From a virus, in the IMG/VR virus record IMGVR_UViG_3300027905_000009, positions 1-44,214 of that record: 44,214 nucleotides of DNA. One strand, 5' to 3'. The position numbers and the translations under genes are program-made. This document shows, one piece after another, positions 31,490 to 39,602 of this stretch. The notes below the pieces were generated by a model, which did no database searches, was not told the origin of the DNA, and was given only the letters and a program-made list of their open reading frames with translations. Each line of letters starts with the position of its first letter. The stretch's first letter is position 1.

Positions 31490-32284
31490 CTAGCCGAGGG
31501 TGAGGATCGAATAGTAGACCGTAACAATCGCCGTCCCGTTGCCGGTGGTGAAGGCGCCGGTCCCGTTGGTGATCTCCAGGCCGGTAGCCGTAGGCGGCTG
31601 GATCACGGCGCTCGGAGGCGCGAGCACGTTGTTGGAGGAGCTGGCGCTGTTAATGGTCGCGGCGGGGACGTTGCCCGCGTGAGGATTGACGGAGGTCCCG
31701 TGATACTGAAACGTCACGGCGCCGCCACTGGCGAACTGAGTGCTGCCGGCCTTAAACTGCACGACGATCTGGTCGATCACCAGGACTTGGCCCGCGGCCG
31801 GCGCCGGCAGAATGGGAACCGGCGTTCCATTCATGGCCAGAATGTTCGCCGCGGAGAGGGCCACGGTCGCCTTTTGGAGCAGGCCCGGATCGATGTCGCT
31901 GGAGCCGATCAGCGCGAACGACGTCGGCGTCAGACGCACGCGGACCGTGGCGTCTCCCGAGCCACCGCCCAGCGCGTTGGTGCCGCTGGGATTGGTCAGT
32001 GAAGCATAGCCGATTTCCAGATTGGCCACGCCGGCCGCGGTCGTGCGCGAGGACGTGCACTGCCCCAGGGCGTCGTTCCAATACACCTTGTCGCCCTCGT
32101 TGAAGGTGCTGGTGTCCTTGGCCAGGTCGAACACGCCCTGGACCATGCCGGCCAGAGCCGCGCCGGACAGAACCGTCTCCACCGCGACGGCGAAGATGTT
32201 GCCGACCTTGAAGCCGCCCCCGCCGTTGACGTTATACGGGGCCAGAAAGTCGAGGGTTTCCCCACGATGCACAAAATTCTGCAT
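31490..32284 (-). CDS. capsid cement protein (DUF2190) with C-terminal extension
   Basis: Residues 1-115 match DUF2190 capsid decoration proteins: QNFVHRGETLDFLAPYNVNG, then GFKVGNIFAVAVETV and KVYWNDALGQ. Members are usually about 100-120 residues; this one has 264. The extra C-terminal 150 residues are beta-rich (VLVIDQIVVQFKAG, FQYHGTSVNPHAG, AIVTVYYSI) and may be an added domain on the outside of the capsid. The gene follows the capsid gene, as usual for cement proteins. Confidence 0.75.
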   Translation of the reverse strand: MQNFVHRGETLDFLAPYNVNGGGGFKVGNIFAVAVETVLSGAALAGMVQGVFDLAKDTSTFNEGDKVYWNDALGQCTSSRTTAAGVANLEIGYASLTNPSGTNALGGGSGDATVRVRLTPTSFALIGSSDIDPGLLQKATVALSAANILAMNGTPVPILPAPAAGQVLVIDQIVVQFKAGSTQFASGGAVTFQYHGTSVNPHAGNVPAATINSASSSNNVLAPPSAVIQPPTATGLEITNGTGAFTTGNGTAIVTVYYSILTLG

Positions 32285-32362: not shown

Positions 32363-33814
32363 TTACGCCCCCGCGTTTTGCTGCCAGCCGCGGTAATCGA
32401 TCGCGGCGGCCGCGAAGTCCAAACGGGCCTTGATCTCGACGCCGTCGACGTCGAAGCCCTGGCGGGTTTCGATGTAGACGCCTTCCTGGCCTTCCAGGTA
32501 GCAGTACTCCAGACCGTCGATCTGGGCCGGATCGGCCACCGCGTACCAGGCCGTGCCGCTCGCGGCATCCAGACGGGGTTCGATGACCGGGATCATGCTG
32601 CGCACCCAGCTCGGGACCACCTTGGTCAGATCCGAAGACGCGATATCGATCGGGTAGACGGCTTGCAGCAGGTAGGTTTCGAGAGCCGCCGGGCCGCAGA
32701 GGAATCGCGGGACCAGATTCAAGGGGGTCCCTTGAGGACCGCTCTGCAGCCGGAGCTGCTTGCGGGCGGCGGCCAGCGCGCCAAGCGCGTTGGTGATGAT
32801 GCTGCTGCTGGATCCGGTCAGGACGTTGTTGTGGGCGGAATTGAACATCGCCACGTTATCCACCTGCATCACCTGGTTGCCGGTGATGACGGCCCAAACG
32901 GTGTCGGACTCGAGGCGCGCGGCGGCCACGCCCAGGATCGCCGGGACGCGGGTGAACGCCTGCAGGTCGTCGTTGATGATGACCTTGCGGGTGATGGCCA
33001 CTATCTCGCCGTAGGTGGCGAGCGAATAGTTCTGGTTCGAATCGGTGAGATTCGCCCGGTGGTATTCGCCCTTCTGGTTCAGCTTCTGCAACGCCGAGGC
33101 GTCGCTCAACTGCACGCGATTGATGGGCTTGAAGTCGGCCGCCGTGACCTGCTTGGCGAGCGGCTGGAAGCTGCGCGGCCAGGCCTCATAGGCTTGCCGC
33201 AGCGTCTTGTTGGCAACGTTGGCCAGAATGCTGGGGAAGTCGGTGGTCGATTCCGCGCCGCCGGAGAAGGATTCCGACTGGATGCGGCCCTCGGAGAGGG
33301 CGCGCTGGGCGAGTTCCATTTTGCTCATGCCGCGGGGATTGATGCCGCGCAGTTGGAGCGATTCGCGAGCCATCTCGAGCAGCGAGAAGCCGCGGTAATT
33401 GCGCCCCTGCTCCTCCAGCCGCCGCTGATAGTCCGGTCCGCGCCCGTCCAGATATTCCCCGGTGGGCTCGCCGCTGGAGTTCAGCCTCTTGGCCATGCCG
33501 AATTTCGGGTCGTGCCGCAGGAGCAGGGCGGACTGCATCTGCGCCAGGCGGGTTTCGCCGGCTTCGCGGGTGATCACGGCCTCGCCGGTGATGCGGAAGT
33601 CTTCGCCCTTGGCGTCCTGCTCCCCTTTGACCGCCAGTTGCGTCATGATGCTCTTGCGGGCCTCGTCGGCGGAGATCCCGTCGCCGATGAGTTTGGCGAC
33701 GAAGGTCTCGTCCAGGGCCTTGAAAGGAGCCGCCATGGCGCGAATGTCACTTACGCGCTGCCGCTCCGCCTTAACTGCCTCGTCGCGCGCTGCGGCGAGC
33801 TGCTGTTCTTCCAT
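32363..33814 (-). CDS. nested scaffold-major capsid protein from internal start
   Basis: Met351 of the fusion (MEEQQLAAARDEAV) is preceded by GGAGGAG with six bases between, the best ribosome binding site in the neighbourhood. It lies exactly at the boundary between the protease part and the helical scaffold-like part. A 483-residue product would result, comparable to the way lambda makes Nu3 scaffold from inside gene C. This would supply excess capsid subunits over protease. Confidence 0.5.
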   Translation of the reverse strand: MEEQQLAAARDEAVKAERQRVSDIRAMAAPFKALDETFVAKLIGDGISADEARKSIMTQLAVKGEQDAKGEDFRITGEAVITREAGETRLAQMQSALLLRHDPKFGMAKRLNSSGEPTGEYLDGRGPDYQRRLEEQGRNYRGFSLLEMARESLQLRGINPRGMSKMELAQRALSEGRIQSESFSGGAESTTDFPSILANVANKTLRQAYEAWPRSFQPLAKQVTAADFKPINRVQLSDASALQKLNQKGEYHRANLTDSNQNYSLATYGEIVAITRKVIINDDLQAFTRVPAILGVAAARLESDTVWAVITGNQVMQVDNVAMFNSAHNNVLTGSSSSIITNALGALAAARKQLRLQSGPQGTPLNLVPRFLCGPAALETYLLQAVYPIDIASSDLTKVVPSWVRSMIPVIEPRLDAASGTAWYAVADPAQIDGLEYCYLEGQEGVYIETRQGFDVDGVEIKARLDFAAAAIDYRGWQQNAGA

Positions 33815-34864
33815 GTTGTGCTCCTCCACTGATTTGGAAGCGCTTGTTGCGCTCCCGATTGTTCCGCCGCTGGCGGACAAAAACGCCGTGCTGAAATCGG
33901 CCGGCACCGGGCACGGGGAGATTTCGAACGGCTCCCAATCGGTAGCCGCGAACATCCCCATTTCATTCGGATTGGAATACTGCGGCGCCCCTTCCGGCAG
34001 CGGATTGCCCGCGCTCAGCTTCTCCCGGTCGTAGATCCAGGCGCCGAAACTCAGATTCTGGACGATGCCGGCGGAAACCTTCCGGAACAACTGGGCGGCG
34101 TCCGGATCGCCCAGATCGAACTGCAGCGTCGCCGTGCCCTTGGTCCCTTGGGCCTGCGCCTTGCGGACCACGCCGACCTGAGCTTTCGTCCCGGTCTTGC
34201 CCGCCATGGCGGACTTGAAATCGTCCCCGGTGAAATGCGTATCGAAGACCGGAGCGCCCGCGTTCAGGCGGTCCAGCCTGGCGCCGGCCATGTCGAGCCA
34301 CAGCATGCAGGGATCGCCCGTGTCCGGATCGCGCCGGGAGACCCATTGGCCGCCATACCAGACGCAATCGATGGTTCCGGCCTTCAGATCGACCGTGCTG
34401 GGCACGAATTCGGCGATACTGCCGCCGTCGACTTTGCCGCCGAAGTAGTCCTCGGGGCCGATCTCGCCCGCGGCCTTGAGGTCGGGAGCCTTCATTCCCG
34501 CGTCCTTGTAGTGCGCCGCGAGGTGCGCGTGCACGCCTTTGCGGTCCGCATCCGGGACGCTCAGTCCGCCGCCGTTCAGCCGGCCCATGGCAGAGGCGAC
34601 GCCCTTCATGTTGGCCGCGCCCACGGTTCCGTCCGCGGACACGTTGTGGTGCGGCAGCTTGTAGGCGTCCTTGGTTTCCGGATCCTTGGACGGGTCCACC
34701 CAGGCGTGCATGGCGCGCAGCGCTTCCTTGGTGGGCTTGTCGCCCAGCCGCTTCAGGTTCGCGCCGGCGTCCCAGGCGCCGTCCTTGTCGACGGCCGTAT
34801 GCTTCACGCCGATCGCTCCGAGCTCTTCCGGCGCCGTTCGGCGCCCCGTTTTGAGATCGCTCAT
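32363..34864 (-). CDS. prohead protease-scaffold-major capsid fusion protein
   Basis: The 833-residue protein combines a domain with AYKLPHHNVSADG and SVPDADRKGVHAHLAAHYKD (residues 50-125) often found in phage prohead proteins, a protease region (about 145-330) with likely His210 (FDTHF) and Ser264 (RKVSAGIV), a charged helical scaffold-like part (350-440), and a major capsid part (440-833) with SDASALQKLNQKGEYHRANL, DSNQNYSLATYGEIVAITRK and ITGNQVMQVDNVAMFNSAHN, as in Mu-like gpT capsid proteins. Such fusions are known. Cleavage should release the capsid protein. An internal start at 33814 could also make the scaffold-capsid part alone. Confidence 0.9.
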   Translation of the reverse strand: MSDLKTGRRTAPEELGAIGVKHTAVDKDGAWDAGANLKRLGDKPTKEALRAMHAWVDPSKDPETKDAYKLPHHNVSADGTVGAANMKGVASAMGRLNGGGLSVPDADRKGVHAHLAAHYKDAGMKAPDLKAAGEIGPEDYFGGKVDGGSIAEFVPSTVDLKAGTIDCVWYGGQWVSRRDPDTGDPCMLWLDMAGARLDRLNAGAPVFDTHFTGDDFKSAMAGKTGTKAQVGVVRKAQAQGTKGTATLQFDLGDPDAAQLFRKVSAGIVQNLSFGAWIYDREKLSAGNPLPEGAPQYSNPNEMGMFAATDWEPFEISPCPVPADFSTAFLSASGGTIGSATSASKSVEEHNMEEQQLAAARDEAVKAERQRVSDIRAMAAPFKALDETFVAKLIGDGISADEARKSIMTQLAVKGEQDAKGEDFRITGEAVITREAGETRLAQMQSALLLRHDPKFGMAKRLNSSGEPTGEYLDGRGPDYQRRLEEQGRNYRGFSLLEMARESLQLRGINPRGMSKMELAQRALSEGRIQSESFSGGAESTTDFPSILANVANKTLRQAYEAWPRSFQPLAKQVTAADFKPINRVQLSDASALQKLNQKGEYHRANLTDSNQNYSLATYGEIVAITRKVIINDDLQAFTRVPAILGVAAARLESDTVWAVITGNQVMQVDNVAMFNSAHNNVLTGSSSSIITNALGALAAARKQLRLQSGPQGTPLNLVPRFLCGPAALETYLLQAVYPIDIASSDLTKVVPSWVRSMIPVIEPRLDAASGTAWYAVADPAQIDGLEYCYLEGQEGVYIETRQGFDVDGVEIKARLDFAAAAIDYRGWQQNAGA
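33821..33827 (-). promoter_or_regulatory. internal Shine-Dalgarno GGAGGAG
   Basis: GGAGGAG on the minus strand, followed by CACAAC and ATG at 33814, inside the protease-capsid fusion gene and in frame with it. It encodes VEEH in the long protein. It decides the proposed internal start. Confidence 0.55.
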
Positions 34865-34877
34865 GTTGTTCCGTCCG

Positions 34878-35351
34878 CTAGTTCAGTCCGAGCTGGACCT
34901 TGACGTATTCGGTTTCGCCCATCAGCGCGATCTGGGCGAGCTGGCGCTCGAGCCAATCGATGTGATCGTCCTCATGCCACTTGATCCAGTGCTCGAACTT
35001 GTTGCGCGTGTTGTCGTCCTTGGCTTCGAGCGCCAGCACCGCATAGCCGTTGTAGGCGTCCACGATGGCCGTCTCGGCGTCCAGGGCCTTCTGCAGGATG
35101 TCCGTGAGGGTCGCCCGCGTGGCGGCGTTCGCGGCGCCGTAGGCCGGGTCGGCTCCGAGGAAGAAGATCCGGTCCGTGATTTCCTTGAGATACGACTCCG
35201 CGTCTTCGCCGAAGCCGCAATATTTGTCGGCCAGCTTCTTGAGGCCGCGGTAGCGCAGGTCGCGCTTGTCCAGGTGATACTGGACGTTCAGCCGCGCCTC
35301 CATGGAGGCCGCCTGTTGCAGGACACCAATGACCTTCGGATCGCCGTTCAT
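34878..35351 (-). CDS. bacterioferritin-like four-helix protein
   Basis: The 157-residue protein has full bacterioferritin length and layout: VIGVLQQAASMEARLNVQYH, DRIFFLGADP, then HEDDHIDWLERQLAQIALMG. By alignment with E. coli Bfr, di-iron ligands Glu18, Glu93 (Bfr 94), Glu127 and His130 are kept, but Bfr Glu51 and His54 are Ala51 and Tyr54, with Glu52 at the haem Met52 position. Ferroxidase activity may therefore be altered, and haem binding is unlikely. AAGGAGA lies before ATG, a strong signal. It sits between portal and capsid fusion genes, where no ferritin is expected. Dps-like or structural use is possible. Confidence 0.8.
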   Translation of the reverse strand: MNGDPKVIGVLQQAASMEARLNVQYHLDKRDLRYRGLKKLADKYCGFGEDAESYLKEITDRIFFLGADPAYGAANAATRATLTDILQKALDAETAIVDAYNGYAVLALEAKDDNTRNKFEHWIKWHEDDHIDWLERQLAQIALMGETEYVKVQLGLN

Positions 35352-35455
35352 GAATCTCCTTCGATACCAGGAAATACCAGGATTACCGCCCGCCGAATTC
35401 CTCTAAGCTGTGGCAACGAGAGCCCTTGGGTTTTCTTTCTACCAGCTTTTACCAC

Positions 35456-37183
35456 CTAGTTCACATACAGCCGGGAGCTGGATTCCCATCGCCGTGATCC
35501 ATGCCTTAACGCCTGGGCGGTCAAATGGTCGGCCGCGCTCGCGAGCTGCCCGGCCTGGTGGCGAACTTCCTCCGCGGTCATTCCTTGGCCGGGCGTACCG
35601 CTCAGGCCCTGGCCCTTTGGCGCTCCCACCGCCGGCTTCGCGCTGGGCGTTCGTTCCTCGGTTCCGGCGGGCTGCTCCTGTCCGCGGTCGGTGACGTTGC
35701 GCGGGTCGCAATCCAGGATGATTTCGAGCTTGTCCAGCTTGGCGTTGATGCGCGCGATTTCCTCGAGCTGGCCGTCCGGGTCGTAACCGTTCTGGGCGAT
35801 GGCTTCGGTCAGCGTCAGCACGCCCATGCGGATCCGCTTCAGGTCCGCCATCGTGTCTTTCAGCGGATCGACGCTCTCGAACTTCGGCGCCGTCCACTGG
35901 GTGGCGTATAGACTCAGCTTTTCATCGTCCACGGCCGCCGCCGGGATCTTGCCCTGGAGCACCAGCGTGTCGATGAACCTGCGCCGCACGGGCGAGCAGA
36001 ACATCGGGACCAGCGTCAGCCAGCGGTAGCCCTCGATGGTGTTGCGGAAGCCCAGCATGCCGCCGCGCCACGAGGAATAGGTGGTCTGCGACAAATCCCC
36101 GGTCATCACTTCATACGGCGTGCCGATGCCGGCCGCGATGCGGTGCAGCTCGGTCTTAACGTAGTCGCTGTAGCCCCCGGCGCCCTGCGGATTGTTGAAT
36201 CTCACGTCCTGGCCGGGCTTCAAATATTCGATCATGGCCGGCTCGAACGACTCCACCTGGTTATCGTTCTGCGGATCCGTGTCCTTGATTCCCAAAGGCG
36301 TGCCAGCGATGCCTTCCGGCTGCGTAACGAAGGCGACCACGCACGCTTCGATCTTCTTCCGCACGCCCTCGGCGTCCCGGTAGTCGTCCAGGTCGCGGAA
36401 GGCCATCATGGACGGCGTCATCCAGGGCACGCCGCGGACCTGGCCCGGGCGCAAGACCCGGTAGATGTGCATGATCTGCTCGGCCGGAACCGGCTGGCTG
36501 ATGATGCCGCCCCGCGGGTTCAGGATCAGCACGCCGCCCGGGTGATAGCTGAACAGCCAGTAGGCCACCCGGCGGCCCAGCATGTCGAACTGGACGCCCT
36601 GCATCACGTGCCCGTTGATCAGGCCCATGGTCCGGGTCTGGTCCAGAAAGTCGGCTTCCAGGATCTGGAGCTGCAGGGGAACTCTCAGGGCGGCCTGGGG
36701 CAGACGCGGCCGGTAGCGGATGATTCCTTCGCCGCTTTCCGCCGTGCTGCGCATCACCAGCGCCTGCATGCCGTAGAAATCCAGGCGCTGCGGCGTATCG
36801 CACTGCTCCACGAAGTAGGGCCACTCGCCGTCGATGATCCTGTCCAGCTTCGCGTTACCCGTTTTGGCCTGTGGAACGATGCCGGTCCCGACGGTGTTCC
36901 CGACCAGCTCCTCCAGCGCCTTGGCGGCGTGCGGATTGTTTCGGACCAGGTCCCGCGACCGGTTGCGCAGCCAGATGAGCGCGCCCATCAGCTCGACGTT
37001 GGCGTCGGTCGAGGCCGCGTACCACCCGTGCGCCCGCCGACCCGAAGTTGCCCCGTCGTAACGGAAGCGCTCGGCGCGTTTGTCCCGCAGCTCGGAAACG
37101 TAGTCCAGCGCCAGCCGGGTCTTGACCCGCCGCAAAGCCGTGTCCGGCGAGACGAGACCGATGGCCCGATCGAGAAGATTCAT
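35456..37183 (-). CDS. portal protein (lambda gpB-like)
   Basis: The 575-residue protein carries hallmarks of the lambda-type portal family: an N-terminal AERFRYDGATSGRRAHGW segment, LRNRSRDLVRNNPHAAKALE, QILEADFLDQ, the loop RGVPWMTPSM, and IGTPYEVMTGDLSQTTYSSW near the C-terminal third. It forms the DNA gateway at one vertex and binds terminase. A Gln/Pro/Gly-rich tail (about residues 500-575) is poorly structured. It follows the DUF4177-like gene and precedes the ferritin-like gene with a gap of 104 bases, in which I see only a doubled CCTGGTAT and no clear promoter. Confidence 0.9.
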   Translation of the reverse strand: MNLLDRAIGLVSPDTALRRVKTRLALDYVSELRDKRAERFRYDGATSGRRAHGWYAASTDANVELMGALIWLRNRSRDLVRNNPHAAKALEELVGNTVGTGIVPQAKTGNAKLDRIIDGEWPYFVEQCDTPQRLDFYGMQALVMRSTAESGEGIIRYRPRLPQAALRVPLQLQILEADFLDQTRTMGLINGHVMQGVQFDMLGRRVAYWLFSYHPGGVLILNPRGGIISQPVPAEQIMHIYRVLRPGQVRGVPWMTPSMMAFRDLDDYRDAEGVRKKIEACVVAFVTQPEGIAGTPLGIKDTDPQNDNQVESFEPAMIEYLKPGQDVRFNNPQGAGGYSDYVKTELHRIAAGIGTPYEVMTGDLSQTTYSSWRGGMLGFRNTIEGYRWLTLVPMFCSPVRRRFIDTLVLQGKIPAAAVDDEKLSLYATQWTAPKFESVDPLKDTMADLKRIRMGVLTLTEAIAQNGYDPDGQLEEIARINAKLDKLEIILDCDPRNVTDRGQEQPAGTEERTPSAKPAVGAPKGQGLSGTPGQGMTAEEVRHQAGQLASAADHLTAQALRHGSRRWESSSRLYVN

Positions 37184-37194
37184 CGTTCCAGGGC

Positions 37195-37395
37195 CTATTT
37201 CTTCTTGCCTTTATTGGTTGCCTCAAAGAACTCGCGGCGCGGCGCTTCGGTGTTCGTTACAGGCGGTGCTTCCGGCTTGGGCCGCCGGAAAATGTAGCGG
37301 CCGCGGTCGCATGCTGCGAGCTCCCAGCCTTCTTCGCCGAGCTCGGCGAGATCTCCAGCCTCCGGATAGCCGGTCACCTTATACTCCCAGCGCAT
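37195..37395 (-). CDS. small DUF4177-like protein, 66 aa
   Basis: ATG 37395 overlaps the preceding stop by one base (TAATG), fixing the start. The product begins MRWEYKVTGYPEAGD and continues LGEEGWELAACDRGRYIFRR, the pattern of DUF4177 proteins (WEYKV, then GWEL and YIFKRP). The C terminus is Lys-rich. Such small proteins occur in many phages and bacteria without an assigned role. Confidence 0.65.
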   Translation of the reverse strand: MRWEYKVTGYPEAGDLAELGEEGWELAACDRGRYIFRRPKPEAPPVTNTEAPRREFFEATNKGKKK

Positions 37396-37649
37396 TAGTC
37401 GAACTCCCGCAAGCAAGGACCGGTCGGACCGTCGCCGCGCTTATGCTGAGCGAAGGCGACGCGCACGTCCGTGCCTCCGGAAGCCTGGCGGATCCAGTCT
37501 TCGCCGGCCTCGATCGCCTTCAGCATGTCGGCGCCGTTTTGAAACCTCTGGCTCTTCCCGTCGGAGAAGCGCACTTCCAGCGTCCCGGACAGGTAGGCGA
37601 GCTTTAGGGCGTCGACCGAAGCCTGCAGCTGATCTACGGTAAGCGCCAT
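37395..37649 (-). CDS. gpW-like head-tail connector
   Basis: The 84-residue protein has two helices around a short hairpin: LQASVDALKLAYLSGTLEVR, then FSDGKSQRFQNGADMLKAIE. This is the layout of lambda gpW, which joins head and tail, and the place between large terminase and portal matches the lambda order (A, W, B). Residues after about 60 are less typical. It begins at the base after the terminase stop. Confidence 0.75.
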   Translation of the reverse strand: MALTVDQLQASVDALKLAYLSGTLEVRFSDGKSQRFQNGADMLKAIEAGEDWIRQASGGTDVRVAFAQHKRGDGPTGPCLREFD

Positions 37650-39602
37650 TTAGTCTCGTTGAAACCAGTTCCTTTTGGGAATCCACCGTTCCGTCTTCTG
37701 CAAGGGCTGCACAGCCGCCGGAGCCTGCGCAGGCTCGGGAACCAGGCGGAGCGCCTCTTCGAATCTGCGCCACTGCGCGTCGTTCATGCGGTCGATACCG
37801 AAGATCGCCGCCGCGCCGCGGTTGTAGACCTTCAAATCCAGCGGCTCATTGCGGGCATTGGGCAGCTTTTCCCAGCCGATCTCGCCGTTCTGGCGGACCA
37901 TCCGCTTTTCCGAGCACAGCCCCTCGAAATAGCGCCGCTCATAGGCCACCGGAAAGTGGTAGGCCCCGGCCATCGGACTGCCGTCCGACCGCGGCCGCAC
38001 ATGCCGCAGCAGATCGTACACTTCCTGTTTGACGCAATGCGTCCCGATACCGACGATGTGCACGCCCTGGCGCTTGCGCGCGGCGTCTTCTTTCGACACC
38101 GAAGAGATCACCCGCAAGGCGTCGTCGGTTCCTTTGACCGGAACCACCGTCCGCGGCGCGACGACCGCGATCCCCGCCGGGCTTACGGCCAGCCGGGCGT
38201 GCCGCAGCGCGAAGTCGTACACCGGCTTCGGCCGGCTGCCGGTGTCGATCGCCATGATCATGATCGGCATGGTCTGCCCGCCAGCGTGCGGGAAATCCCG
38301 CTGCAGGACCTTGGCGTTCAGCGCGTCCCAGAGTTCCTGGGACGTGACCGGTAAGTCTTCTCCGTTGGGCGCCTGCGCCCGGATCGAGCCGTACTCGATC
38401 GACCAGTTCTCGCGATCCCGGCCCCAGGCGACCACTTCGTATTCGAGGCGCGGCGGGTTCTCCTGGACGTCGACAGCGGCGGTCAGAAACAGTCCCCGCT
38501 GCGGAATGACGGCCTGCCCGTTGGCCGGATATTCTTCGCGGCGGGCGAAGAGCAGCTCGTCGTCGGGCGTTTCGCCCTGCTCGGTCCACAGTTCCGCGAG
38601 CGCGGTGTTGACGAAGACCTGGAAGCGCTGCCGGTCGTCCTTGCGGGCCAGGAAGTCCTCCACCATCGTCCCCAGCCGCTTCCACGGCGAATAGAGATGC
38701 GAGATCCAGAAGCCGGCGCGTCCGCGGAACGGGCGCTGCGCGCGCCACTCGGCGAGATCGCAGGCGCTCCACCGCGCTTCGTCTTCCCAGATGGCCTGGC
38801 AGTGCAGGCACTGATAGCCCAGGACGGGGCTGAACTTGACCTGTCCCCAGTTCAGAACCTGGAAGGTTCCGCAATTGGGGCAAGGCACCCAGGGCCGGCG
38901 CCCGTCGCTTTCGTCGTAGGCCTTCCCGATGCGGCTGCGGCCCAGGACGGTCGGCGAGCAGCACAGCACGATCTTGCGCCGCGTGCCGAACGTGACCGTC
39001 CGTTCGCGCGCCAGGTCGATCGGATCGCCCTCGCTGCCGGCAGAGGCCGGATATTTATCGATCTCGTCGGCGAACAGGTAGCGGACCGACCGCCGCGCCA
39101 GGTTTCCCGGCGCGATCGCGCCCACCAGGGCCAGCGATCCGCCCGGATAGGTCTTTTCGAGAATCGTGTTCGACGAATCCCGACCCTTGGCCTGTGCCAC
39201 GCGGCCGCGCAGGCATTCGCAATCGCGAACCATGGGCGCCAGGCGTTCCTTGCTGAACGAAATGGCGTCGTCGGCCCTGGGCTCGATCACCATGGCCGGG
39301 CCCGGGTCCTCGCAGATCGAATAGGCCAAGGCGCACTGGATCAGCAGCGTCTTGAGCATCTGCGTCGAGCACATCAGCACCAGCGAGTCGACCGCCGGGT
39401 CGGTGAAGGCGTCGAGCGGCTCTTTCTGCCAGCCATACAGTTTCAGGAGGCCGGCGCGCGCCGAGTATTCCGAGGACAGGACCAGGTTCCGTTCGGCCCA
39501 CTGGGAGAGCGGCAGCCGCTCGGGCGGAAGCCACAGCTTAGCCCACGAACTCCGATAGCTCTCGGAGAGCCCGGTCGATTTCTCCGCGGGTGCGCTGGTC
39601 AC
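37650..39602 (-). CDS. terminase large subunit (GpA family)
   Basis: The 650-residue protein has GpA-type motifs: a Walker A-like CSTQMLKT (residues 78-85), a Walker B-like RYLFADEID (near 174-182), a zinc-binding pair CPNC (241, 244) and CLHC (265, 268), and nuclease acidic residues in AAVDVQ (near 378) and IMAIDTGSRP (near 453). It cuts and pumps DNA into proheads and would generate cohesive ends as in lambda. The GTG start lies inside the small-subunit gene (65-base overlap); there is no later ATG before the Walker region, so this start or a nearby one is needed. Confidence 0.9.
   Translation of the reverse strand: MTSAPAEKSTGLSESYRSSWAKLWLPPERLPLSQWAERNLVLSSEYSARAGLLKLYGWQKEPLDAFTDPAVDSLVLMCSTQMLKTLLIQCALAYSICEDPGPAMVIEPRADDAISFSKERLAPMVRDCECLRGRVAQAKGRDSSNTILEKTYPGGSLALVGAIAPGNLARRSVRYLFADEIDKYPASAGSEGDPIDLARERTVTFGTRRKIVLCCSPTVLGRSRIGKAYDESDGRRPWVPCPNCGTFQVLNWGQVKFSPVLGYQCLHCQAIWEDEARWSACDLAEWRAQRPFRGRAGFWISHLYSPWKRLGTMVEDFLARKDDRQRFQVFVNTALAELWTEQGETPDDELLFARREEYPANGQAVIPQRGLFLTAAVDVQENPPRLEYEVVAWGRDRENWSIEYGSIRAQAPNGEDLPVTSQELWDALNAKVLQRDFPHAGGQTMPIMIMAIDTGSRPKPVYDFALRHARLAVSPAGIAVVAPRTVVPVKGTDDALRVISSVSKEDAARKRQGVHIVGIGTHCVKQEVYDLLRHVRPRSDGSPMAGAYHFPVAYERRYFEGLCSEKRMVRQNGEIGWEKLPNARNEPLDLKVYNRGAAAIFGIDRMNDAQWRRFEEALRLVPEPAQAPAAVQPLQKTERWIPKRNWFQRD

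Follow-up and report, generated by a model that had tools for sequence, protein, structure and literature searches.

Proteins of the ferritin superfamily have been described both in viral genomes and beside capsid genes. A viral bacterioferritin (Bfr) derived from Thermoproteota is read, in the passages found of PMC10904782, as a functional Fe2+-oxidising auxiliary metabolic gene. The ferritin-like protein gp217 of Vi01-like phages, assigned by fold prediction only, underlies the 'ferrojan horse' proposal, and no dependence on TonB or FeoB was found (PMC10892097). In encapsulin systems whose cargo is ferritin-like or a Bfr (PMC8346489), the ferritin-superfamily gene adjoins a capsid gene of the HK97 lineage. 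The papers searched describe no ferritin or Bfr gene within the head module of a phage, an absence that is not proof.

Here, we have analysed an entire IMG/VR record of 44,214 nt (the window) that carries a Bfr-like gene among its head genes. Comparison with its relatives shows that the order of head genes in several phage lineages stably includes a ferritin-family protein, whose metal centre is altered alike in almost all members.

Results

The original prediction had placed a Bfr-like gene with a very good ribosome binding site in the head module, and both were borne out: a ferritin-superfamily reading frame lies between the portal gene and the fusion of prohead protease and major capsid protein (MCP), and the AAGGAGA site lies 3 nt before the ATG (Table 1). 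AAGGA- or AAGGAG-type sites also precede the start codon in most relatives. Judged from the ribosome binding site alone, strong late expression of the gene may be expected. An identical protein (100%) is encoded by four other metagenomic contigs and a 99% identical one by a fifth, partial contig; the gene keeps its place in each and is therefore not an assembly artefact. The protease-MCP fusion of the window has an N-terminal extension, MSDLKTGRRTAP... (approximately residues 1-150), which is shared with one other contig (L012) and largely with a second (L105).

Table 1. Features of the head module in the window
Feature	Position	Strand	Evidence
Head decoration/cement protein	31490..32284	-	phrog_122 E=1.6e-18, PF09956
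Prohead protease/MCP fusion; downstream neighbour	32363..34864	-	NF045541 552 bits, PF25209
Bfr-like head-module gene, 157 aa	34878..35351	-	ATG start; Pfam, TIGR and PDB matches, AF2 model
Ribosome binding site AAGGAGA of the Bfr-like gene	35355..35361	-	sequence; 3 nt 5' of ATG
Portal protein, lambda type; upstream neighbour	35456..37183	-	Pfam PF05136 E=8e-104, TIGR01539
Head-tail adaptor (Ad1-like)	37395..37649	-	phrog_2545 E=3e-7
Terminase large subunit (gpA type)	37650..39602	-	PF05876/PF20454

The window protein belongs to the Ferritin superfamily (Pfam PF00210, E=2.4e-14, 53.9 bits against a gathering score of 24.5) and scores below the cut-off of the bacterioferritin equivalog TIGR00754 (55.2 against 125.55 bits). 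Its top PDB sequence matches are bacterioferritins, spanning residues 1-154. AlphaFold2 (AF2) gave a poor model from the single sequence (pLDDT 53), and the model used here is the one based on an alignment with 13 relatives (pLDDT 94.7, pTM 0.88), in which four helices are followed by a short fifth. The best matches of this model in Foldseek and VIA-align were all Bfr or FtnA, with TM of about 0.9; superposition on E. coli Bfr by VIA-align gave a Z of 24.8 and an rmsd of 1.2 Å over 155 residues. The length and layout of a bacterioferritin, as first proposed, agree with the 157 residues of the protein and the Bfr fold of the predicted structure, and the four-helix fold, whose loss in prediction would have told against that proposal, is retained. 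A Dps protein would lack the C-terminal fifth helix, whereas here one is predicted at residues 146-154 and the closest structures are Bfr and FtnA. Nor does the protein resemble an encapsulin cargo: it stops three residues past the last helix and has no C-terminal targeting peptide, and its gene lies among those for portal, terminase and protease-MCP fusion, not beside a shell gene that stands without portal or terminase. The search of PHROGs yielded no family for the protein; the one match was weak (E=0.0096) and covered 23 residues against a profile of 42 positions. Some BFVD models of 'prohead protease' proteins (A0A6J7XDU5, A0A6J7WIS1, A0A6J7WPK9) have a ferritin-like match, and in these three the functions may have been fused independently.

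Approximately 85-90 distinct relatives of the protein were found in viral contigs. In a search based on the portal, about half of the phages recovered had the gene between portal and MCP, while in the remainder the portal was mostly joined directly to the protease/MCP gene. Since such gene-less relatives exist, the gene is an accessory one. Later searches used alignments of the Bfr-like proteins themselves as query, so that the head-module slot is not built into those matches, and they added phages in which the portal is of the HK97 type (phrog_12) and the head-maturation protease is separate. Among distinct proteins with enough flank, a portal lies at most 250 nt before the gene in 81/86, and a protease or capsid gene follows directly in 78/79; the original prediction had called for a search for the same gene at the same place in related phages. 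The slot is constant across lambda-type (phrog_21) and HK97-type portals and several protease types. The exceptions include a locus where two major-head-protein (phrog_10) genes flank the Bfr-like gene, which is 3' of a head-maturation protease (L221:4796-8055), one with about 1.25 kb between portal and gene (L063:6692-7947) and one whose flanking genes match no known family (L098).

The search of a genome collection returned three matches, two beside an MCP homologue (L156 and L157) and one a bacterial gene (L158). L156 is a contig of a Bryobacterales MAG and may be a binned phage contig. Acidobacteriota are candidate hosts of such phages. When three family members were compared with INPHARED by tblastn, the family was not found in an isolate phage at that sensitivity; the queries gave either nothing or matches of about 24-27% only, annotated bfr or unannotated.

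The metal site was compared between 84 distinct phage proteins and 32 host Bfrs, with the bacterial Myxococcales gene (L158) and a distant host ferritin (L166) left out. Positions were numbered on a sequence that we take to be that of E. coli Bfr and that serves as a ruler only; the Pfam, TIGR and structure comparisons are independent of it. All 32 host Bfrs keep the six ligands (E18, E51, H54, E94, E127 and H130), whereas a complete di-iron ferroxidase set is found in only one of the phage proteins, L020 (5375-5842), which occupies the slot after a lambda-type portal on a contig that stops before the next gene. The bridging Glu51 is lost in 83/84 phage proteins and the haem ligand Met52 in every one, while E18 (82/84), E94 (81/84) and H130 (79/84) are kept; position 54 is His in 49/84 and aromatic in the others. 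The motif HxxK[WY]H, present in 83 of the 84, aligns a His with the E127 position, a placement that depends on the alignment because this stretch varies in length between clades and the ungapped window protein keeps E127. The residues that the original prediction had read in the window protein were correct: Glu18, Glu93 (Bfr E94), Glu127 and His130 are kept, and Ala, Glu and Tyr take the places of Glu51, Met52 and His54. In 52/84 phage proteins, the position of E51 is held by Cys. At loci of an insertion clade (e.g. L066:6716-7201), helix D is longer by about seven residues than in the HK97-portal clade.

The ratio dN/dS of the Bfr-like genes has a median of 0.10 (883 pairs). The gene is under purifying selection, and its metal site has been consistently rebuilt and has not decayed. 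In a tree with Bfrs of Acidobacteriota and E. coli, a branch with support of 99/97 separates all phage copies from the host Bfrs, L020 being the basal phage copy; branches are long, and the bacterial Bfrs sampled are those of Acidobacteriota, one Myxococcales gene and E. coli. The phage gene is an old phage clade, separate from the sampled host Bfrs. A recent insertion from a host, which the original prediction had named as the finding that would undo it, was rejected within this narrow bacterial sampling: gene-less relatives do exist, yet the other relatives hold the slot and form a clade of their own. Presence and absence of the gene on the portal tree imply six changes, and strict vertical descent is therefore not claimed.

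Two of the gene-less phages (L237 and L240) have portals 98-99% identical to that of the gene-bearing L212. In both (from 5086 and from 4266, respectively), the first 17 codons of the Bfr-like gene are fused in frame to the linker of a ClpP-type prohead protease, an in-frame deletion of about 435 nt (about 145 codons) having removed the Bfr-like gene and the protease's own tag. This deletion is a natural loss of the gene. The many gene-less relatives and the deletion show that the gene is dispensable.

Proteases and protease-MCP fusions beside the Bfr-like gene often begin with a short tag (MPLLRTE, MPLKF, MALKF, MPLQL and similar) and a Pro/Ala-rich linker, and the gene-less relatives lack the tag. 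Related pairs illustrate this: gene-bearing MALKF..-LKYGHIL against gene-less MKKDSSLKYGHIL (portal identity 80%), MPLQL..-RFQAS against MKNGQTRGFRAS (76%), and MPLLRTE against MSESPQYD. The pattern occurs in 22/31 gene-bearing and 1/49 gene-less N-termini in a hand-collapsed list of representatives; it was chosen after inspection of the data and the rows are related, so these counts are not a probability. In a test of independent pairs, tag and gene agreed by 3 to 0 (p=0.25), which is too few pairs. The N-terminus of the fusion protein in the window, MSDLKTGRR..., does not fit this pattern. As L237 and L240 lost gene and tag in one deletion, the tag could also hitchhike with the gene without functional coupling.

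Discussion

Taken together, the constant slot, the conserved rebuilt site and the protease tag argue for an accessory protein of the head module working together with the prohead protease, and not for an iron-mineralising Bfr. We estimate a probability of roughly 0.5 that the protein is a phage-specific, non-ferroxidase offshoot of Bfr that serves the head as an accessory docked to the prohead protease. The head slot itself suggests a protein that enters the virus head or acts on it, not one that stores iron for the cell. It would be translated together with portal and protease, and its predicted fold is that of a four-helix subunit of the Bfr type. The N-terminal tag of the protease or fusion (M-P/A-L-x-F/L and a flexible linker) could, in many of these phages, hold the protein, which would then enter or act on the prohead. 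As the sequences show, the di-iron centre has been rebuilt, with both bridging carboxylate positions changed in most members and with E18, E94, H130 and the new His kept under selection; such a centre may hold a single metal ion or serve only to stabilise the bundle. A further step, which we offer tentatively and by analogy with encapsulins, is that the tag recruits the rebuilt Bfr into the prohead as cargo, with E18, E94, His and H130 as a new metal site.

An alternative is that the gene is an auxiliary one for iron storage or oxidative protection in the cell or virion, with a modified centre, and that its place in the head operon reflects late expression only. The ferritin superfamily fold, the retained E18, E94 and H130, the basal phage copy with all six ligands in the same slot, and the report of a lake-sediment virus whose auxiliary bfr is presumed to act as a ferroxidase (in the passages found of PMC10904782) are consistent with it. 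We consider it unlikely nonetheless: E51 and the haem ligand, which every host Bfr in the comparison keeps, are gone from 83/84 and from all phage proteins, respectively, and a gene of host metabolism would not usually keep one slot across differing types of portal and protease. Since Glu51 and Met52 are lost and a His motif lies in the region of the bridging Glu127, iron oxidation and mineralisation as in Bfr seem unlikely on the sequence evidence. The same losses speak against the proposal, made at the outset, that the protein loads iron into the virion or protects packaged DNA from oxidative damage; they agree better with a role in structure or docking, or with a different metal site.

Perhaps the protein is instead a scaffold, chaperone or protease regulator, that is, a metal-free bundle that serves head assembly structurally or by binding the protease. 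That the gene adjoins the protease/MCP gene, that these proteases carry N-terminal tags, and that the BFVD prohead protease models have ferritin-like matches would all suit such a role, which we regard as improbable because E18, E94 and H130 are kept in 79-82/84 proteins, more than a bare structural bundle requires, and gene-less relatives evidently manage without the protein. Co-assembly with host Bfr into a hetero-oligomer that alters or taps the host iron store seems least probable, for although the closest structures include subunits of hetero-oligomeric Bfr/Ftn shells (9iig, 9bts, 9h1u), only about a quarter of residues are identical to solved Bfrs, and the head slot and protease tags would be left unexplained.

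If the prohead does contain this accessory, phage heads would be connected with encapsulin-ferritin compartments, which have the HK97 capsid fold in common with them, and a ferritin-capsid partnership would become directly testable in a virus. In either case, the ligands should be checked before viral bfr genes are labelled as iron-storage auxiliary genes.

The window protein is like E. coli Bfr (1BCF) and P. aeruginosa FtnA (3R2H) in its length, four-helix bundle and short C-terminal helix, the model superimposing on both with a Z of 24-25 at an rmsd of 1.2 Å, and it shares E18, E94, E127 and H130 with bacterioferritin. It differs from bacterioferritin in falling below the TIGR00754 cut-off and in lacking E51, H54 and the haem Met52, and the phage proteins as a group differ in their phage-specific HxxK[WY]H motif, head-module context and separate clade. 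Like the viral bfr of PMC10904782, ours belongs to the Bfr family, lies in a viral contig and is under purifying selection, but the passages found of that report describe no head-module placement. Like gp217 (PMC10892097), it encodes a ferritin-like protein in a neighbourhood of phage structural genes, but gp217 lies near a tail completion gene. The encapsulin systems (PMC8346489) share with our locus the adjoining HK97-lineage capsid and ferritin-superfamily genes and a short terminal peptide with flexible linker, here a possible docking tag. They differ in that the phage locus is a full head module with portal and terminase, in that the ferroxidase ligands are lost, and in that the phage tag is found at the N-terminus of the protease/capsid precursor, whereas the encapsulin tag is found at the C-terminus of the cargo.
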